In this document: piece by piece, positions 51,605 to 64,000 of the stretch
Position numbering within the stretch: the first letter of the stretch is position 1
Layout of the letters: each line of letters begins with the position of its first letter
Assembly: GCA_019671135.1 (NCBI GenBank)
Contig: JAHRHY010000003.1
Coordinates: 124,001-188,000 of the forward strand
Length of the DNA: 64,000 nucleotides
Direction: 5' to 3'
Source: Linnemannia hyalina
Taxonomy: Eukaryota > Mortierellomycota > Mortierellomycetes > Mortierellales > Mortierellaceae
Translations under genes and position numbers: made by a program
Notes under the pieces: generated by a model
Seen by the model: only the letters and a program-made list of their open reading frames with translations
What the model was told of the DNA's origin: nothing
Databases searched by the model: none

Positions 51605-52948
51605 CTACTGCAAGAAGCAGCTCTTGTCGTCAACAAACTCCAACCCAGCGGTGGGGTGCGCGCACGTGTACTGGGTCAAAAGGCAGAGGTTGTTGAAACG
51701 ACGCATCTGACCCCGCTTGTCCTTGGCACAGACAGGGTCCACCACCATCGTACACATCGTACCACACTTGTTAAAGTCATTGTCCTCGATGGCCAAGTCG
51801 TCGATTGCACCATCAGCAGCGTCGGCAGAAGCTTCAACGGCGGCAGGGGCAGGAGCATCAGGGGAAAAGGCGTCACTATCGATGGGGCAGAGTTCATGAG
51901 CGACGACATGGAAGGTGTTGTCGGGATTCTGGCAGTTGAAGACCGAGAGGGCGCACTTGTTGCTGAATGTTTGGTAGTGGTTACCATTCTTGGAGGCCGT
52001 GCAGACGGGGGCATACTCCATTGTGCAGACGATGTCGCAGGTTGGGAGCAAGGGGGTAGAACGCTTTTCGGGAACGGTGACCGCGGCGGCGCCGGTTTCA
52101 CAAGCTTCGTCGGAGACGATGGTGAACGAGTTGTCGGGGTTCTGGCAATTGAAAACTGAGAGGGCACATTTGTTGCTGAACGTTTGGAAGTGCTTGCCAT
52201 TCTTGGAGGCCGTGCAGACGGGGGCATACTCCATTGTGCAAACGATATCGCAGACTGGGAGCAATGGAGTTGAGCGCTTCTCGGGTGCAGCGGTCTCGGT
52301 GGCATCGGTTTCACAAGCTTCGTCGGAAACGATGGTGAACGAGTTGTCGGGGTTCTGGCAATTGAAAACTGAGAGGGCGCACTTGTTGCTGAACGTTTGG
52401 AAGTGCTTTCCATTCTTGGAGGCCGTGCAGACGGGAGCATACTCCATTGTGCAAATGATATCGCAGACTGGGAGCATAGGAGTTGAGCGCTTCTCGGGGG
52501 CGGGGACAACGGCGGTATCAGCTCCCTCATCCTCCTCGACCTCACAGGCAGTCTCGGAGACAACACTGAACAAATTATCTGGGTTCTGGCAGTTATGAAC
52601 TCTCAACAGACAGGAGTTACCGAAGGTCTGGCGGGTCTTGCCATCCTTGGAGGTCGCACAGACGGGATCCTCGACCATGGCACACATGATGTCGCAGGTT
52701 GGATACATCTCCTCACAGGCCGACTGAGCGAGGACCTTGGCCTTGGCGTGCGGGTGCTGGCAGTTGTAGACGCCGAGGGTGCAGGCGTTTCCGAAAGTTT
52801 GCTTCTCGCCAGATTTGAGCTGGGCGCAGACAGGCTGGTAAATGAAGGTACAGGCTTTGTTGCAGACCATGGGGGCGGCTTGGACGGATGATGAGTACAT
52901 CAACAGTGTAGCGACGGCTGAAAAGGAAATGAGTTTTGAGAACTGCAT
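51605..52948 (-). CDS. Secreted protein with six Kazal-type domains
   Basis: Single exon, 447 aa. Start at the ATG at 52946-52948 because MQFSKLISFSAVATLLMYSS...VQA-APM is a clear signal peptide; 43 open codons upstream are S/T/H-rich leader. Six cysteine-rich units follow, each with the Kazal pattern C-x3-C-x7-C-x10-C-x6-C-xn-C, e.g. CDIICTMEYAPVC then TFSNKCALSVFNC. The inhibitory loop CTMEYAPVC closely resembles the classical Kazal loop CTLEYRPLC; by that alignment the P1 residue (two after the second Cys) is Phe in unit 1 and Met in units 2-6. Units 3-5 are nearly identical with ~210-base DNA repeats. The linkers before units 3, 4 and 5 contain PEKRSTP, a dibasic KR suited to Kex2. A proline/alanine/acidic linker precedes unit 6. 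Likely role: extracellular serine-protease inhibition. Largest of four Kazal genes here. Confidence 0.9.
   Translation of the reverse strand: MQFSKLISFSAVATLLMYSSSVQAAPMVCNKACTFIYQPVCAQLKSGEKQTFGNACTLGVYNCQHPHAKAKVLAQSACEEMYPTCDIMCAMVEDPVCATSKDGKTRQTFGNSCLLRVHNCQNPDNLFSVVSETACEVEEDEGADTAVVPAPEKRSTPMLPVCDIICTMEYAPVCTASKNGKHFQTFSNKCALSVFNCQNPDNSFTIVSDEACETDATETAAPEKRSTPLLPVCDIVCTMEYAPVCTASKNGKHFQTFSNKCALSVFNCQNPDNSFTIVSDEACETGAAAVTVPEKRSTPLLPTCDIVCTMEYAPVCTASKNGNHYQTFSNKCALSVFNCQNPDNTFHVVAHELCPIDSDAFSPDAPAPAAVEASADAADGAIDDLAIEDNDFNKCGTMCTMVVDPVCAKDKRGQMRRFNNLCLLTQYTCAHPTAGLEFVDDKSCFLQ
52009..52500. repeat. Tandem ~210-base intragenic repeats (Kazal units 3-5)
   Basis: Three copies of a DNA unit beginning at the conserved GGAGGCCGTGCAGACGGG (near 51993, 52206 and 52418) lie in the six-Kazal gene. 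They differ by few bases, so unit number could change by unequal crossing-over. Confidence 0.8.
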
Positions 52949-53081
52949 TGTGGAGAAGGAATGGGGGAATGGAAGGAAGTGCTTGTTTTTTTTTTGGTTA
53001 TGGTTATGTGTTGGTATGGTTTGGTTGGTTGATGATGAAGATGAATGTGAAGATGGAGATGAAAGAGTGGTCATCATCGAT

Positions 53082-53090
53082 GCTTATATA
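53082..53090 (-). promoter_or_regulatory. TATA box of the six-Kazal gene
   Basis: The minus strand reads TATATAAGC here, about 135-140 bases upstream of the start codon. The position and sequence fit a TATA element for a strongly regulated secreted-protein gene. Confidence 0.55.
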
Positions 53091-55731: not shown

Positions 55732-56616
55732 AAAGTTATACCACATTACTATCAGATTACGTTTGCTTTATAGTAAGCATTAAGCCATCATGCAGACATA
55801 CCAGCACCGGGAGTTAAATAGGGATGCAACACGGTTGTTTGGGTCAGGCCATAACAATAAAAGGAGATATTTAGGTGTTATTAAATCGATGGCATGATAG
55901 TGCGGAATGGATAACAGAAAAAGAATAGGAAAAGCACTCTAAAAGCGCAATCAGTTGCCCCCTTTGCTAGAGAGGCGCCGCTGACATGTGTTGTCCAACC
56001 ACTGTGCCACACACCAATCACAAATCCTCGCATAACGGTTATGTGATCGGCTGATGAGAATTTTCATCCTCACCCGCACGCACAACGAGAGCTCTTTAAT
56101 CCATAGCGAATATCCCAGCCAGTGTTGGGGGGATGATCCAAATATGGTGAGTCCACAACCACATCTTTCACTTCTGGCACATTTAAAGAGATGAAATGAC
56201 AAGACGCACAACAGAATATTACCTATGCAAGAACGAATGAGACAGGCAGGAGAAACACGCGGGCAGTGATCAGGGAAAGGCGGTGGTGAAGGAAAAGAGT
56301 GATGATGGAAACGAGTGATGAAGGAAACGAGTGAAAGGAGCGATGGACAAGACGTGTTAACGTCCTGGAAACAAGACATGAGCGAGAAAACAGGACAATT
56401 GGCGCGAAAATTACGTCACCGAAGTGAGTAAATCGCCCGCCCCGAATCCGGAACTACACTCCTTTTTACCTTATCATATCTTTTCGCAAAAGAGAGTACA
56501 TAAAAGGGCTACTCTCTAGTTCGATTGACTTAACTGTGCTCCCTTACACCCGGCCTTTCGCTTTGACCCTTCTGCCTACCATACCCTCCGAGGCGTGGCC
56601 CGGAACTGTACCTACA
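55732..56616. other. Spacer between two decayed genes
   Basis: No supported gene. It contains a plus-strand TACATAAAAGGG TATA-like element near 56498 with no coding sequence of its own downstream (the downstream plus-strand frame is antisense to the relic at 56617-57990). Confidence 0.45.
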
Positions 56617-57990
56617 CTACATCCAGGGATAATTTCTGTCACTGTCCTGGGGCTGGAGGTAGAGTGGCCACTGTTGCTCGAGCAATTATCCTCGAATGGC
56701 ACTACAAATGTTGTGGCCGGTTATGATATCTCTGTGAATAAGGACTTGCAGTTCTTGCAGCACAGCCGCCGAGTGATGACCTGGCAAACGATCTGCTCGC
56801 ATATGAGACACTTCTTGGAGGTGCAGAATTCGTTGATACCGACAACAATATAGCCGAGAAACATTGCCTACAAGGCGAACAAAGCGATAGATAGGGGATG
56901 ATTATAAATGAAGTATTCGAAACTTACGAGCTAGACAAAGTACGCCAGAAAGGATCCATGAAGGGATGTAAGGCCAGAGCTCGACTTGAACTGGCTGAGA
57001 TCAATTCCGATCACCATCTTATTCTCCTCCTTCCTCTTTGCACCCACCGATCCTTTGATGGCATTCAACAGACAGTTGGCCGTTGTCCTGAATTCTTCCT
57101 CCTTGGCGTGCTCTGCATCTCACGCATAACGATTGCAGAGCATTTTGTTACCCTGGCAGTCGTTCAGTGGTTCTTGCACCTGCTCCAACTCTTCAAGATA
57201 CTTGATAACGCTTGCACCTTCACTGCAAAGTGGGGGCAAGCTTGACTCGAGATCCTTGATGGAGATTCCACCACCTTTGGGAACTATCGTCTTAGCCTCC
57301 TCCATCCAGCGTCGACGCGTCAGTGTGGGTTGCAATACCGCTTTCTGTGACACAGCGACAACGACATTGTGGAACGTTTGGCTTGATGAGGTCAAATTAG
57401 AGAATGCTGAAGGTGGTGTAAGGGCGGTCGAGGCACTTGAGAAAGTCATTGGGGTAACATACTCACTGGAAGTGAACTCGGCTTTCTTGTCAATAGAACC
57501 CCTGATGCGAACAGTCTTGTGCAGTTTCATGTTCTCCGACCTCATAATGAATCTGTTGACCATGGTGCCGATTCCAGTGTTCCTTGGATAGTTGTTTGAG
57601 TAGATATATCTCATGAACCATCCAATAAACTGAACCTGTCTGTCAAAGGTGTCGTCGTCATCACCTAAGGTAATGCTGTCCTGGCTCGGCAGTGTGTTGG
57701 AGGTGGCGTCTTCAGTCATCTCTCGGGGAATAGGAAGGCAGATCTCCTTTAGAAACTCTTTGTCGTCGGAAGTAGCGCCACCTATGTTGACTCATTCAAA
57801 GTATGCACCGAAAGACCTTGACATTGAGAGCACTCTTGTTTGCCGCCAGCGTTCCAATGTCAAGAGTAGCCATGGAGTGTTCCCACGTAAAAACCTTAAC
57901 CAGTTGTACCTTTGTCATTCGGTCAATCGAGGGGAGACGGGGACCTCGACGTGGGGCATTCCTCTTGGACGAGACATTTTGATTCCTAAA
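56617..57990 (-). pseudogene. Decayed TnpB/Fanzor-like gene (zinc ribbon and RuvC-III region recognisable)
   Basis: Minus-strand pieces, 5' to 3'. About 57965-57800: RRGPRLPSIDRMTK and VFTWEHSMATLDIGTLAANK, ending at a stop. 57780-57120: a shifted frame with GGATSDDKEFLKEICLPIPR and on through WMEEAKTIVPKGGGISIKDL to LNDCQ at a GTAACA donor. About 57115-56935: EEEFRTTANCLLNAI, ENKMVIGIDLSQFKSSSGL, SLHGSFLAYFV, then a stop just before a GTAAGT. About 56858-56617: GYIVVGINEFCTSKKCLICE, VITRRLCCKNCKSL, then after a one-base slip HRDIITGHNICSAIRG, a TAA, and LLEQQWPLYLQPQ. The C-CxxC...C-CxxC ribbon, preceded by NEF-TSKKC and followed by HRDxxxGHN, has the layout of the OrfB zinc ribbon and RuvC-III of TnpB and its eukaryotic relatives, the Fanzors (RNA-guided nucleases of mobile elements). 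Assignment is from motif layout only; at least four disabling lesions are visible. Confidence 0.5.
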
Positions 57991-58825
57991 TGAAAAGAGA
58001 TGCCTCCAAGCGACCTACTGCAACTTTTCACCTCCAGTGTGATATGGCCTTCTGAACACTTTTCTGTCGTGTACGTGCCCCTATAATATGTTGCAGATGA
58101 GGGAGTCGTTGTAGGTTAAAGGACCCACCGAACCCATCAGTCTTTCCCACTCATCAGTTTTTCCTATCCCCGTGGTATGAGAACGATTTCAGCGACATAA
58201 AACTCTTTTGAGTCAAATCACGTATGATAACAGGCAAAAAAGAGGAAAACTTGAGGAATGCCCCCGAATCCAGATACCAGGCTTACTTTCACCTCTTCCT
58301 CTTCCAAATCTCCATTCAGAGTAATGGGGAGCAGATCATGCACTCCAATTCTTCTCCCTCCTCCTCCTCCTCCTCCTCCTTAACATGGTCAGGCGTCTCC
58401 TCGACGATCTTACGACGGCTTTGGGGGCATGGGAGTTAGGAGTTAGACAAAGTGGATGTGAACAAGGTTTGGGTGATGAATGAGTGAGATAAATGAGAGG
58501 GAATGAATGCAATTGCTTTTGACAAAAAAAAGTCACAACAGTTGGTCAGCAACGCTGTTTTGGGTTATTAGCGCTACCAAAGGGGGTCTCCAAGCCTGTT
58601 TAAGAGATCTCGCTGTGTAATCAGAAAGTTCTGTCGAGGCTCGAGGGAACACCCATTTGATTGTGCTCGCGTCTTATGTTCACGTATCGTTTCAGATCGC
58701 GTCAATCATGGCGTGTGACGAACTTTATTTTCGCATCGAAGAGCCAAAGGAAACAAAAAGCTCGACCAGTCAATGATAAAACAAACTTGGCGAAATTAGG
58801 GAGGAGTGAGAAGGGTACTATTCAT
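57991..58825. other. Intergenic, no gene seen
   Basis: No supported gene. A CTC/TCC trinucleotide run lies at 58358-58381. The 3' end of the two-Kazal gene adjoins at 58826. Confidence 0.5.
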
Positions 58826-59284
58826 CTATGACTTAGGACATCTGCCCTTGGTCACCTTGACGTTTTCCTTGGGACGTTCGCACATGGCGTTATCCAGCTC
58901 GCACTGGTTGCCAAAGGTTTTGGTCCTGCCATCATGGAACTTTGCACAGACAGGGTGGTACATCTTGATGCAGACCTTTTCACAGGTTGAAGGGGGGGCC
59001 GTTGTAGGCTGTTCTGGACAGGCGGTCTTGGAGATGAGCTTGACTTTCTCCTTGGGATGCTTACAGACGTAAGCTTCGTAGGCGCACTGGTTGCCAAAGG
59101 TCTGGTACCTGCCGCATTCTAGCTTCATGCACCTTGGGTCATACTCTCCGGTGCAGATTGTCTCGCACTTGGGAGGCTTGGGCTTGTTGTTGGCGGCTTC
59201 GACGGCAGGAGCGGCGGAAGAGATTGTGACCACGGTGGACAGGATGGCGATAAAGGCCAAGGAGACGATGGTGGAGAATTTCAT
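58826..59284 (-). CDS. Secreted protein with two Kazal-type domains
   Basis: Single exon, 152 aa, ATG at 59282-59284. A signal peptide (MKFSTIVSLAFIAILSTVVT...SSAAPAVEA) leads to a K/P-rich spacer and two Kazal units: CETICTGEYDPRC...GNQCAYEAYVC...AC and, after a TTAPPST linker, CEKVCIKMYHPVC...GNQCELDNAMC...RC. All six cysteines are present in both. By alignment with classical Kazal loops the P1 residues are Gly (unit 1) and Lys (unit 2), so only unit 2 looks like a trypsin-type inhibitor. There is no dibasic Kex2 site in the linker, unlike the six-domain gene. A/T-rich GATAAAAAG on the coding strand ~75-85 bases upstream (59359-59375) may act as a TATA element. Likely extracellular. Confidence 0.9.
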   Translation of the reverse strand: MKFSTIVSLAFIAILSTVVTISSAAPAVEAANNKPKPPKCETICTGEYDPRCMKLECGRYQTFGNQCAYEAYVCKHPKEKVKLISKTACPEQPTTAPPSTCEKVCIKMYHPVCAKFHDGRTKTFGNQCELDNAMCERPKENVKVTKGRCPKS

Positions 59285-59716
59285 ATTGGGACGGTGTTGT
59301 ATGTGTGTTTTTGTTACTTGTGATGCGTGATGGAAGGGGAAAAGGGGGAGTGCGCCCTTTTTATCGCTTTTTATTGTTGACTCCTTGATCTTTAATCCTC
59401 CTTGAACAATTCTTTATTCTCGTTTGACCCCCTTACGTGTGGGCTTTTATTCTTGTCTTTTCTCCCTCTCCCTTCCTGTCAAGAGTATATAAAAGGTCAC
59501 TGGGCGCGCCTCTCCTGGAGCATTCATGCGTAAGGCGCCATGCTGTACATGCAACCTCCTGGTGGTCAAAAATAAAGTGGGTCATTACTGTAAAGTGGTT
59601 TATTTTAGTGCTACAAGATCGGCGGCGTCTCTCATCTAGTCAAGGAACCGAAAGAAGGGAGAGGCATGATATGAAACGTAGGGAAAGAAGTAGGGTAAAC
59701 GACCTCATAGCTTCCG
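59285..59716. other. Spacer between Kazal genes, with an orphan plus-strand TATA element
   Basis: No gene seen. The plus strand carries TATATAAAAGG at 59486-59496, a near-perfect TATA box, but no open frame follows. It could drive a noncoding or antisense transcript into the 59717-59977 gene. Confidence 0.45.
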
Positions 59717-59977
59717 CTAACATCTGCCTTGATGGACAAGCTGGTAATAGGAATCGGTCCGACAGTTCCTGAGGGTCATAAAACACTCGTTATCAAATGT
59801 GTTGTACTTACCATTATCCACTGCACAGATAGGTCTTGAGTCGGGAGGGCAGTTCTTTGGGCAAACGGCGATGGGTTGACCGTCTGTTCCGATGGTAGTC
59901 CCAGGGCTTGTGTTTGTTGACCCCATTGAGAGGAGGAAGGTCATGAAAAATGTGAATGTGGGGTATGAGGAACGCAT
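59717..59977 (-). CDS. Small secreted single-Kazal protein
   Basis: Single exon, 86 aa, ATG at 59975-59977. The signal-peptide-like start is MRSSYPTFTFFMTFLLSMGS, then a short T/G-rich spacer and one Kazal unit: CPKNCPPDSRPIC...TFDNECFMTLRNC and a final HQGRC. All six cysteines are present. The P1 position by alignment is Pro, which would be unusual for a working inhibitor, so this copy may have changed function. A GTAAGT occurs inside the domain (coding for GKY); I keep it as coding because the Kazal spacing is only right without splicing. A TATATA element lies ~88 bases upstream. The C-terminal YQLVHQGRC matches YKFVHQGKC of the neighbouring 60564-60830 gene, so the two are closely related. 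Confidence 0.85.
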   Translation of the reverse strand: MRSSYPTFTFFMTFLLSMGSTNTSPGTTIGTDGQPIAVCPKNCPPDSRPICAVDNGKYNTFDNECFMTLRNCRTDSYYQLVHQGRC

Positions 59978-60563
59978 TCTATCTTGATTTTGGGGTGTTG
60001 TTGAGTAAAATGCGTATGTGTGTGGATTTGAATGTACGAGCGTGAAAGGGAAGCGAGTGATGAGTATATATCGCTTTTTTCGGCTCGCGATTGAAATGGA
60101 ACTGATAACCGATGGATAACAAGACGGGTGAGAGAGGAGAGGCCTCCTTTATTCTGACCAATCGCACGTTCCCTCCTTTTTCGATGTGTGCTAAAAGGGC
60201 AGCAAGCAAACAGACGAAGAGCATTGAAGGCGATGCATTCCATTGTTTTTATTTGAGTGCCAGCCAAAGACAGCCCCTTCTCCTCCTCCTGTTCTATCTG
60301 CGTATCATCACAATGTGGGGGGTGATCCCACGAAAGCTATTTTAAGTCCATCAACGCATGTACACAAACCACCTCGATGACTGTTGATCAGTTTCACGAG
60401 AAAAAAAAATTGATGCGATTGTTTGCTTGTACACAAGGAACAGCCCTCTAACAATGTAAATTTTATTGCAAAGAAGAGAAATGAGGATAGCCGACATGTG
60501 GGGGAAGAGAGACACAAGTAGTAGAAAAGAGAGCGAGAAAGAGGGAGAGACGCAAACAGGACT
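59978..60563. other. Spacer between the two small Kazal genes
   Basis: It contains the TATA element at 60065-60070 and T/C-rich sequence; no further gene. The minus-strand frames here are short and not conserved with anything else in the window. Confidence 0.45.
60065..60070 (-). promoter_or_regulatory. TATA box of the small Kazal gene
   Basis: TATATA on the coding strand about 88 bases upstream of the ATG at 59977. Confidence 0.5.
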
Positions 60564-60830
60564 CTACTGGTCCTCGCACTTGCCCTGGTGGACGAACTTG
60601 TACCGGTCATTGGGGAGGCTGCAGTTATGAGTCTCAAGGAGGCATTTGTTAGTGAACGTCTTTTGACAGCCTTTCTTGTTTTGACCGCAGACAGGTAGGT
60701 AGAGCCGCGAACAGCGCATCTGGCACTTGCTGCTTGGGAGAACGTCGGGCGCAGGTACTGGGCTCGCGTTGGCAGACAGGATGCCCATCGAGAGGACGAC
60801 CATCAGCAGGGTCAATGGGGAGGAGCGCAT
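60564..60830 (-). CDS. Small secreted single-Kazal protein
   Basis: Single exon, 88 aa. Start at the ATG at 60828-60830 (MRSSPLTLLMVVLSMGILSA...NA-SP), a clean signal peptide; the frame is open for 27 codons upstream but that part is a promoter-like leader. One Kazal unit follows: CQMRCSRLYLPVC...KTFTNKCLLETHNC and a final HQGKC. By alignment the P1 residue is Arg, predicting trypsin-like protease specificity. The start MRSSP and the end FVHQGKC resemble the neighbour at 59717-59977, pointing to a tandem duplication followed by change at the reactive site. Probably an extracellular protease inhibitor. Confidence 0.88.
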   Translation of the reverse strand: MRSSPLTLLMVVLSMGILSANASPVPAPDVLPSSKCQMRCSRLYLPVCGQNKKGCQKTFTNKCLLETHNCSLPNDRYKFVHQGKCEDQ

Positions 60831-61478
60831 TTTTACGTATTCAGGTAGTAGTAGTATTGTGTGTGTATTGAAGGGTAAGTGGGGTGTGGGCGTATGTGGA
60901 AGAAGGGACAATGAGGGCGGCGAAAGAATCCCATTTATCCCTTCCTTCGTTTTTGGGCCGAAATCGGCACGAAATAGCGGGAGGATACCCTCAACTCCTT
61001 ATTTGCAAAAAAAAACACTAATGCTCACCCCCCCTATTCTTAAGCAAAAATGAGAGACTTCACCGAGACCCTCATCAGCATCCACCTTTTTTCCCTTCCC
61101 TCATCATTCGCATTAAGTGAATGCTGCAATGAAAAAAACTCAATTAGTTCTGAGGCCTCCCAGTCATTGAAGCATTAGACAATGACAATGATGTCGTATC
61201 CCAAAAAAAAGTGGATGGGCATGTTCCGTATTCTCTTCCCTCTCTTTTGCGTTTAAGACGCAACACCAAAAAAATTGGAAAAAAGCGGTTCAAGGGTTAC
61301 CCTTCATAAATGAAAAAAGTTGAAAAAGTCTGACGGAGGAAGGGATACTTACGAACCAAAGATTGCTCTCGCAAGCTCGATGACCATAAGTGTCCTCGAG
61401 GTCTGCGATAGTTTTTTAGGCGCGCTCCTTGGGTTCGGATAGAGGTTGCATACTTGGCGTCGCGGGACGAAGGATGGT
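60831..61478. other. Intergenic, no gene seen
   Basis: Promoter side of the 60564-60830 gene and A-rich stretches (61005-61018, 61202-61210); nothing coding is supported. Confidence 0.45.
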
Positions 61479-62843: not shown

Positions 62844-64000
62844 ATGGGAATCAGTGTCCTTCCTTCATGGATCAAGGAGGCCTCCGACGGAATCGAGGAA
62901 GATCTCACCCAAAAAACATGCCATGTGGACTTTCCGGCGATGTTTTTCGCCCTGTTGAACTCGCGTGCATTTTACGGAACCGTCAGCATCGAAGCCAGGC
63001 AGGCCCGACTGCACTACTCACTAAAAACAACTGTCGCTACCAACGTACCAGGCGAACAAAAACATCCACATTCGCCATCTGGGTCTGAGGGGACCGAGTC
63101 GGGGAGTCCATCCATCAAACATGCTCGCCTCACATTGGGAGCTCCCTCAGGCACAAGTACATCGACCGGTCCTGTGTTTGTTGCGATCCCTCCTGGCTCG
63201 GTTCCGACAACCCTTATGACACAGGTCCAACACCTACTGCAAGGAGGACCAGCTCAGATCTTTCTCGACAGCAATGGTACTCTCACAACAACACGTACCG
63301 AAAACAAAGGCATTGTAAGTACATTCGATTTTCAAATACAACCGGCAAAGACAAAGCTGCTGTAAGAAATATACCTAATACTATCTCATTGCTTTGTGTT
63401 TTCAATAGGACTATGGCCACATAGGCCAGGTTATTCACGACATCCTCACGAAAAAAGTCTCACAGGGGCGCACAACAATCCATGCCGACGGTCCCCGTTC
63501 GGTCGAGAAAGAGCACGCCCATCAGAAACGGGACCGTGATCTAACAACGCGGATGAGAAAACTCATGGAGGACTACGACGAAGACAAGATCAAAGGGACG
63601 AAACGGCTATACCGGCGCCTAAAGTCTGTTTATCGGGCACCACCCGATGCCGCGAGACAAGTGCTGGATGCTCTTCAGAATCTGGGGTGGACAATATGTC
63701 GCTGCCCCCACCAAGCCGACTGCTGTATTGCCCGTTGTCTCAATAATGCCGTCAAGCCGGAGGATGTACGAATCATCACCAAAGACTCTGACTTGTTGGT
63801 CTATGAGGCCTCTACATCGATCACTATTCCTGTCGGCAGTCAGTGGAAAACATTCCAGAAGCAGGACCTTATGGATCGACACCAGCTCCCCACTCCAGCC
63901 CACCTTCTTCTTCTTGGTATATTAACAACAAACGACTATACCGACGGCGTTCCTTACTATGGCTTGGTGTCGAACGCTGACATTGTTCGGACGTTTACAT
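62844..64000 (+). CDS. XPG/FEN1-type PIN-like nuclease family protein (3' end outside window)
   Basis: Two exons visible, 62844-63314 and 63409-64000, intron GTAAGT...AATAG of 94 bases; at least 354 aa, running off the right edge. The start MGISVLPSWIKEAS resembles the MGIxxL start of FEN1/XPG nucleases, with an early acid in CHVDFPAMFFALLNS. Exon 2 contains a DxDEDKIKGTKRLYRRLKSV stretch, a cysteine/histidine-rich segment (ICRCPHQADCCIARC), then IITKDSDLLVYEAS and LLLLGILTTNDYTDGVPYYG, which match the XPG-I DSDLL and the GxxxxNDY helix-hairpin acids. So key metal-binding acids appear to be kept. Function of this divergent form is unknown: a DNA flap nuclease or an RNA-binding Mkt1-like protein are both possible. 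The segment around 63010-63130 is S/G/P-rich and probably disordered. Such genes seem to be multicopy in Mortierella-type fungi, which I recall but cannot check. Confidence 0.72.

Follow-up and report, generated by a model that had tools for sequence, protein, structure and literature searches.

A dead transposon gene copy in Linnemannia hyalina and its family of predicted XPG-Fanzor fusion paralogues

The relic and its remaining parts

The stretch of DNA from Linnemannia hyalina (Mortierellomycota) analysed here (64,000 nucleotides, hereafter the window) corresponds to C23:124001-188000 of an assembly of 51.5 Mb in 50 contigs, and its minus strand carries the relic of a gene for a Fanzor, an RNA-guided nuclease. 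The original prediction, made from the letters of the window, had placed a decayed TnpB/Fanzor-like gene at 56617-57990, which is the right locus but slightly short at both sides of the 56386-58071 found here. The motifs quoted in it (the ribbon preceded by NEF, and HRDIITGHN and LYLQP after a slip) are present on the minus strand as described, and the gene is indeed homologous to proteins whose Cas12f1-like TNB ribbon passes the Pfam cut-off. The parts of the relic are listed below in window positions, with paralogous loci designated by L numbers and contigs by C numbers.

56386..58071, minus: whole relic, a 5′-truncated, internally deleted XPG-Fanzor copy whose XPG part is gone (tblastn with family sequences)
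57838..58071, minus: exon 3 remnant, first part (NAPRRGPRLPSIDRMTKVQLVKVFTWEHSMATL; tblastn)
57456..57812, minus: exon 3 remnant, second part (tblastn, 77% identity to L029 frame 2951, E 8e-59)
57455..57456, no strand: internal deletion junction, ~1.28 kb missing relative to L029 (L029 comparison)
56898..57455, minus: exon 4 remnant, middle part of RuvC (VIGIDLSQFKSSSGLTSLHGSFLAYF; tblastn, 52% to L029 frame 4012, E 8.8e-54)
56739..56858, minus: exon 5 remnant with the alternative-position Glu (NEF) and the CxxC...CxxC zinc ribbon (tblastn, 68% to L029 frame 5452)
56578..56748, minus: exon 5 remnant past the frameshift, RuvC-III HRDIITGHN and LYLQP tail (tblastn)
56386..56458, minus: 3′-terminal hairpin with a UUCG loop, predicted end of an omega-RNA scaffold (folding energy)

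The 3′ limit at 56386 was placed by a terminal motif conserved among the paralogues, the nearest of which is L029 on C5. At the 5′ side, 58071-57856 matches L029 frame 2514 with 43% identity (E 5.6e-13, tblastn), and the match to the gene model of locus L037 extends to 57838. At the deletion junction, a position corresponding to nucleotide ~3535 of L029 (oriented) is joined to ~4813, with the RuvC-I Asp of L029 (nucleotide 4672) inside the gap; the deletion removed the remaining exon 3 sequence and the larger part of exon 4, this Asp included. The largest open frame (57791-57120, 223 amino acids, aa) is terminated within the exon 4 remnant by an in-frame TGA at 57122-57120. The ribbon motif GINEFCTSKKCLICEQIVCQVITRRLCCKNC lies on the minus strand inside 56858-56739, and HRDIITGHNICSAIRG and LYLQP lie inside 56748-56578 in a different frame, which places a frameshift between the ribbon and HRD, and in-frame stops are also present. 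In this last part, the exon 5 match covers 56742-56623 at 53% (tblastn) and extends to 56578 with other queries. Overall the relic keeps the Fanzor-type glutamate, the zinc ribbon, HRD..N and the 3′ hairpin, and has lost exons 1-2 and the RuvC-I Asp. Decay had been correctly predicted, although with ~1.28 kb and a catalytic residue gone it is further advanced than was stated.

Comparison of six window pieces with Pfam gave no credible match (two hits to unrelated families, E 0.11 and 0.25), and the relic is not among the matches of a whole-genome search for the TNB ribbon. Since the scan of the bare pieces gave nothing credible, the relic was identified by homology to its paralogues; the profile check proposed in the original prediction gave hits for the paralogues but none for the relic. 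Searched against its own genome, the 223-aa frame yields 58 matches at E <= 0.001 (self included, some being two pieces of one locus), and the best non-self match has an E value of 3.9e-51. Judged by these matches and those of tblastn, the relic is more than chance sequence. It represents a dead copy of a gene from a fungal DNA transposon, and we consider it highly probable that this gene was of the XPG-Fanzor type described below.

A family of genes predicted to join an XPG/FEN1-like domain to Fanzor

A six-frame profile search found 91 TNB zinc ribbons in the genome. At 62 of them an XPG match lies upstream on the same strand, at a distance of 1.4-3.9 kb, compared with three having one downstream and two having one on the other strand within 7 kb (all genome counts of ribbons and XPG matches are lower bounds). 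Among twenty longer paralogue stretches, several loci show consecutive long open frames with GT-AG introns. Gene models built by splice-site scoring of the genomic sequence give a single spliced frame for each of two diverged copies, L040 (1348 aa) and L037 (1295 aa), as well as for L050 (1351 aa), with introns at corresponding places and compatible frames in all three. This agrees with the expectation of several exons of one large protein, there being five exons in the models. The family falls into two clades, L050 belonging to clade 2 and the relic to clade 1. By sequence, the paralogues of the relic are predicted to carry an N-terminal XPG/FEN1-like nuclease domain fused to the Fanzor, a feature which was beyond the reach of the original prediction. 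With dozens of copies in the genome, ranging from fresh (99.98% identical) to decayed, the history of the family can be read from them.

Annotated homologues were sought in three protein searches, in which only the ~8000 candidates sharing most words were scored. The L037 model has 40, from Linnemannia, Mortierella, Entomortierella, Podila, Dissophora, Benniella, Actinomortierella and Haplosporangium, genera which we take to be Mortierellaceae, and the clade-2 model has 14. The C-terminal half gave 158, and among the 120 listed some are from metagenomes, the organism-named ones presumably coming from the same fungal group. As the fusion is annotated in several genera, it is unlikely to be an artefact of one assembly.

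The Fanzor part is recognizable by several class features. The TNB ribbon (PF07282, Cas12f1-like) scores above the cut-off in two paralogue exon 5 frames, in all seven annotated clade-1 fusions and in four of six clade-2 proteins scanned. The alternative RuvC-II glutamate stands six residues before the ribbon (ExxxxxxCxxC) in the relic, which reads NEFCTSKKCLIC, and in the paralogues, as had been anticipated; it is E in 26 of the 27 aligned rows with letters. A regular expression for this arrangement, in which the middle gap was wider than published, is matched by 23 of the 40 clade-1 and 5 of the 14 clade-2 proteins, some of the unmatched ones being annotated as partial. At RuvC-I, clade 1 reads DLG in 30/40 proteins (P, M and G in one each, no match in seven), and clade 2 reads DPG in 9/14 (no match in 5/14). 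The predicted structure of a paralogue has a RuvC fold with REC/WED and TNB parts and matches the solved structures of GtFz, SpuFz and PpFz, which supports the predicted Fanzor identity.

For the N-terminal part, the family profile matches Rad2 among PDB chains (2.1e-12); the 38 chains which this search found include none of SpuFz1, GtFz1 and PpFz1. All seven catalytic acidic positions of the XPG/FEN1/EXO1 class are kept in clade 1 in nearly every aligned row with letters, and six of the seven can be found by eye in clade 2. The seventh, which we take to be E158 in FEN1 numbering, is Gln in all ten clade-2 proteins with the motif (of 14) and Glu in none of them. The XPG_I profile is above the Pfam cut-off in two (P0019, P0029) of seven annotated fusions scanned, and below it in the exon 1 frames of L037 and L040. 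In distant pairs, the XPG exon and exon 4 show the same constraint.

Element ends, terminal hairpin and neighbouring elements

The 3′ end of clade-1 elements reads CTTCGGTGACGTAATTT-NGGCGCCCATTGTCC-TGCAGCC, with variations. A matching 5′ end resembling a terminal inverted repeat (TIR) was found in 4 of the 15 clade-1 loci (L032, L035, L040 and L042), and some of the other 5′ ends may fall outside the stretches examined. Perfect 8-bp target-site duplications (TSDs) flank the predicted ends of L035 (AGGCATCC) and L040 (ATTTGCAT), but not those of L032 and L042. Searching the window for the clade-1 TIR gave 13 matches against 5.8 expected, all with at least two mismatches and none at the relic. 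In clade 2, GACGGACGAAGGGATA forms the last bases of 10/10 copies, with ten different flanks; its reverse complement was not found in the window, and the clade-2 5′ ends lie upstream of the stretches compared. The expectation that intact copies with element ends and a guide RNA might exist elsewhere in the genome has therefore been borne out for open spliced frames and ends, the guide RNA being a prediction from the terminal hairpin only.

When folded, the terminal 73 nucleotides (nt) of clade-1 elements give a long hairpin whose loop is of the UUCG type and which, in 10 of 14 loci, closes right at the end of the element. Its energy is reached by at most five control windows (253-300 per locus) in 11 of 14 loci, the exceptions being L044 (43), L037 (11) and L038 (11). 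The 73-nt fold does not close at the element end in L032, L037, L038 and L044; a 132-nt fold does so in the last three. The inner UUCG hairpin is duplicated in the L037/L038 subfamily. For the relic, two of 300 control windows of 73 nt reach the energy, and compared with shuffles the z score is -1.98 (8/200 as low; -1.56 for 132 nt). Across the loci, the z scores for 132 nt range from -0.93 (L045) to -5.82 (L040). The fold of the clade-2 end likewise closes on the final base (z -3.40, 1/200 shuffles as low). In two MAFFT alignments of the 3′ ends, RNAalifold found no covariation, the five pairs per alignment being invariant or altered on one side, probably because the 5′ arm is misaligned; the sequences were therefore folded singly, with control windows for comparison, and arms were exchanged in a further test. 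In this test, own arms pair better than swapped ones across eight families (permutation P 0.006 and 0.002, family relatedness being ignored), with the own arm ranked first in three of eight families for the full arm (last in L044) and in two of eight for the terminal 16 nt. According to the accessible part of PMC10711439, the reRNAs of insect-virus Fanzor1 reach ~15 nt past the TSD, with TIR and TSD predicted in the scaffold. By analogy, the terminal hairpin is consistent with the end of an omega-RNA, in which case the guide of the relic would be predicted to lie beyond 56386.

Some of the clade-1 elements are flanked by what may be the ends of their relatives. The 3′ flank matches the family 3′-end motif in the same register in L032 and L035 (one mismatch of 15 each) and in L033 (two), i.e. 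in 3/15 loci at two mismatches or fewer, against a background of at most 1.7e-4 each; the match in L045 is weaker (four mismatches) and the other 11 loci do not match. As both of its flanks match the motif, L035 seems to lie inside the terminal hairpin of another copy. A copy so placed would carry the end of a sibling as its guide, making it a transposon that targets its own relatives.

Two further features belong to a clade-2 gene near the edge of the window, and two lie on other contigs:

62844..63314, plus: first exon of a clade-2 XPG-Fanzor gene that is nearly intact (MGISVLPSWIKEASDG), separate from the relic (gene model)
63409..64000, plus: exon 2 of the same gene, with XPG/FEN1-like active-site motifs, running off the window (profile/tblastn matches)
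C4:124244-125395: piggyBac-type DDE domain upstream of L051
C15:575940-576308: piggyBac-type DDE domain upstream of L052

The zinc ribbon of the clade-2 gene lies at C23:191094-191258 and the element continues to C23:191404. Over 4405 bp it shares 99.98% identity with a copy on C50; together with the 3′ end common to ten copies, this indicates that its family was recently mobile. At 61328-61347 (plus strand), 1.5 kb upstream of its start codon, GTCTGACGGAGGAAGGGATA resembles the clade-2 3′ end and is possibly a 5′ terminal repeat in direct orientation, or else the end of an older copy. A piggyBac-type DDE domain occurs 0.5-4.5 kb upstream on the same strand at 27 of 43 clade-2 XPG places (drawn from 68 rows, with 37 of 67 piggyBac rows used and no control count), so some of these could be piggyBac transposons with a two-nuclease Fanzor as cargo. 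The clade-2 subfamily of the window (12 copies, 94-100% identical) falls entirely among the 16 places without that domain. Two annotated proteins (P0045 and P0046) join a piggyBac piece to the Fanzor, which we read as a gene-prediction error. Elsewhere in the window, clustered open frames on the minus strand (51605-53083, 58826-59413, 59717-60148 and 60564-60998) have signal-peptide-like starts and cysteine-rich units (PVC...QTF.N.C-like), and by motif resemble Kazal-type inhibitors.

Alternative explanations and significance

The reading that best accounts for these results, to which we assign a probability of about 0.82, is that the relic is a dead copy of a gene whose intact form encodes a single protein, with an XPG/FEN1/EXO1-like 5′ nuclease at the N terminus and a Fanzor at the C terminus, and that this protein would combine an RNA-guided cut with end trimming. 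The homology, fused gene models, fold, catalytic residues, element ends and terminal hairpin behind it are computational results, from which we infer an RNA-guided enzyme in which both nucleases are active, the XPG part processing cut ends. In such a mechanism, the Fanzor part would load RNA from the 3′ end of the element plus flanking DNA as guide and cut a matching site, e.g. on a chromosome copy without the element; the fused XPG-like part would trim or resect the 5′ ends at the break, and repair would then copy the element in or keep it. The division of labour, in which the Fanzor cuts and the XPG-like part processes the ends, is tentative, and we hold it to be somewhat less likely than not. 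That the fusion couples the RNA-guided cut to 5′-end resection for copying the element, with sibling-inserted copies having guides that target relatives, we regard as speculative and rather unlikely.

Several observations speak against this reading. By the linkage criterion used, 29 of the 91 ribbons have no XPG match and 36 of 107 XPG rows (all 100 of one search, with 6/68 and 1/84 of two others) are not linked to any ribbon. Among the 38 proteins aligned, many lack the beginning of the XPG part, with each of the seven positions a gap in 8 to 23 rows; XPG_I is below the Pfam cut-off in P0005, P0017, P0023 and P0032 and absent in P0012, and PF00867 marks only seven places in the whole genome, three of them at Fanzor loci. 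Synonymous divergence (dS) in the distant pairs is saturated (1.7-2.7), and the close pair L037/L038 has one synonymous and four nonsynonymous changes in exon 4, and none and six in exon 5. Clade 1 has D-L-G rather than the D-P-G of Fanzor1, which the accessible text of PMC10711439 describes as near exclusive in Fanzors, though not absolutely so. To these are added the lack of covariation in the 3′ ends and the Gln at the E158-equivalent, owing to which the clade-2 XPG site may be weakened.

That Gln also favours an explanation in which catalysis by the XPG part is dispensable: as a DNA-binding module it would hold flaps, transposon ends or the displaced strand on behalf of the Fanzor or a transposase, and the Fanzor alone would cut; likewise, SpuFz1 is reported to cut DNA with a guide RNA, and no such domain is described for it in the accessible part of PMC10432273. 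We consider this unlikely, given that clade 1 keeps the seven acidic positions in nearly every row and that the XPG exon is as constrained as exon 4 in the distant pairs. It is still less probable that the two nucleases are adjacent genes of one element which only the gene prediction has joined. The exon 2 frame of L037, L040 and L043, if left unspliced, does end in a stop overlapping the donor site, and P0045 and P0046 show that predictors can join adjacent frames here, but the compatible frames and corresponding introns of L040, L037 and L050 argue for a single gene, as do the absence of a start codon before the conserved beginning of exon 3 in four of five copies examined and the annotation of proteins from several genera as one chain.

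Another explanation concerns the 3′ hairpin, which could be a subterminal inverted repeat acting as a DNA element for a transposase rather than an RNA scaffold. This would fit its 3′ arm being the TIR and the RNAalifold result; the closure at the element end, which matches the place of the published reRNA scaffold as far as the accessible text of PMC10711439 describes it, and the better pairing of own arms make it the less favoured possibility, at roughly one chance in four. Finally, no XPG match was found by tblastn in the window at 58.1-63.4 kb and family matches end at 58071, as would be the case had the relic come from an ordinary TnpB-like gene lacking the XPG part. This origin is very improbable, as in L029, the closest paralogue of the relic, an XPG match ends ~0.6 kb before the shared part begins.

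Compared with known systems, the fused XPG-Fanzor proteins differ from Fanzor1 (SpuFz1, GtFz1, PpFz1) by the additional N-terminal domain, and are about twice as long (SPu-1-1p has 633 aa). They differ from Rad2/XPG/FEN1/EXO1 in that the domain lies within a transposon-borne protein beside an RNA-guided nuclease. PpFz1, from a Mucorales fungus, is likewise a Fanzor with an added domain, although its FRI is a ~100-residue insertion in RuvC which binds cyclophilin, rather than a nuclease-like N-terminal domain of ~310 residues (PMC11423790, accessible part). The IS4-type Fanzor1 elements of Ectocarpus (ESvi-1B) resemble the present ones in having TIRs and perfect 8-bp TSDs, but are from Ectocarpus and its virus, with no XPG domain mentioned in the accessible part of PMC3627910. 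No published description of an XPG-Fanzor fusion was found, which does not establish its absence from the literature as a whole. The words XPG and FEN1 (FEN for PMC3627910) do not occur in the main text of PMC3627910, PMC10432273, PMC10711439 or PMC11423790. For two contigs of animal viruses, the accessible part of PMC11071296 uses the term "Fanzor flap endonuclease homologs (Fendons)", which may or may not denote a fusion. The best 50 of 222 matches in a viral structure library include separate Fanzors and separate flap endonucleases and name no fused viral protein, and phage records gave no match.

Fanzors have been described with a single RuvC nuclease domain, and little is known of their biological function (PMC10711439, accessible part). 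A natural fusion to a flap endonuclease- or exonuclease-like domain, if true, would point to the events after the cut, i.e. end processing and recombination. It offers a direct test of a homing or retention model in eukaryotes, and would be a natural precedent for joining an RNA-guided nuclease to an end-resecting enzyme.
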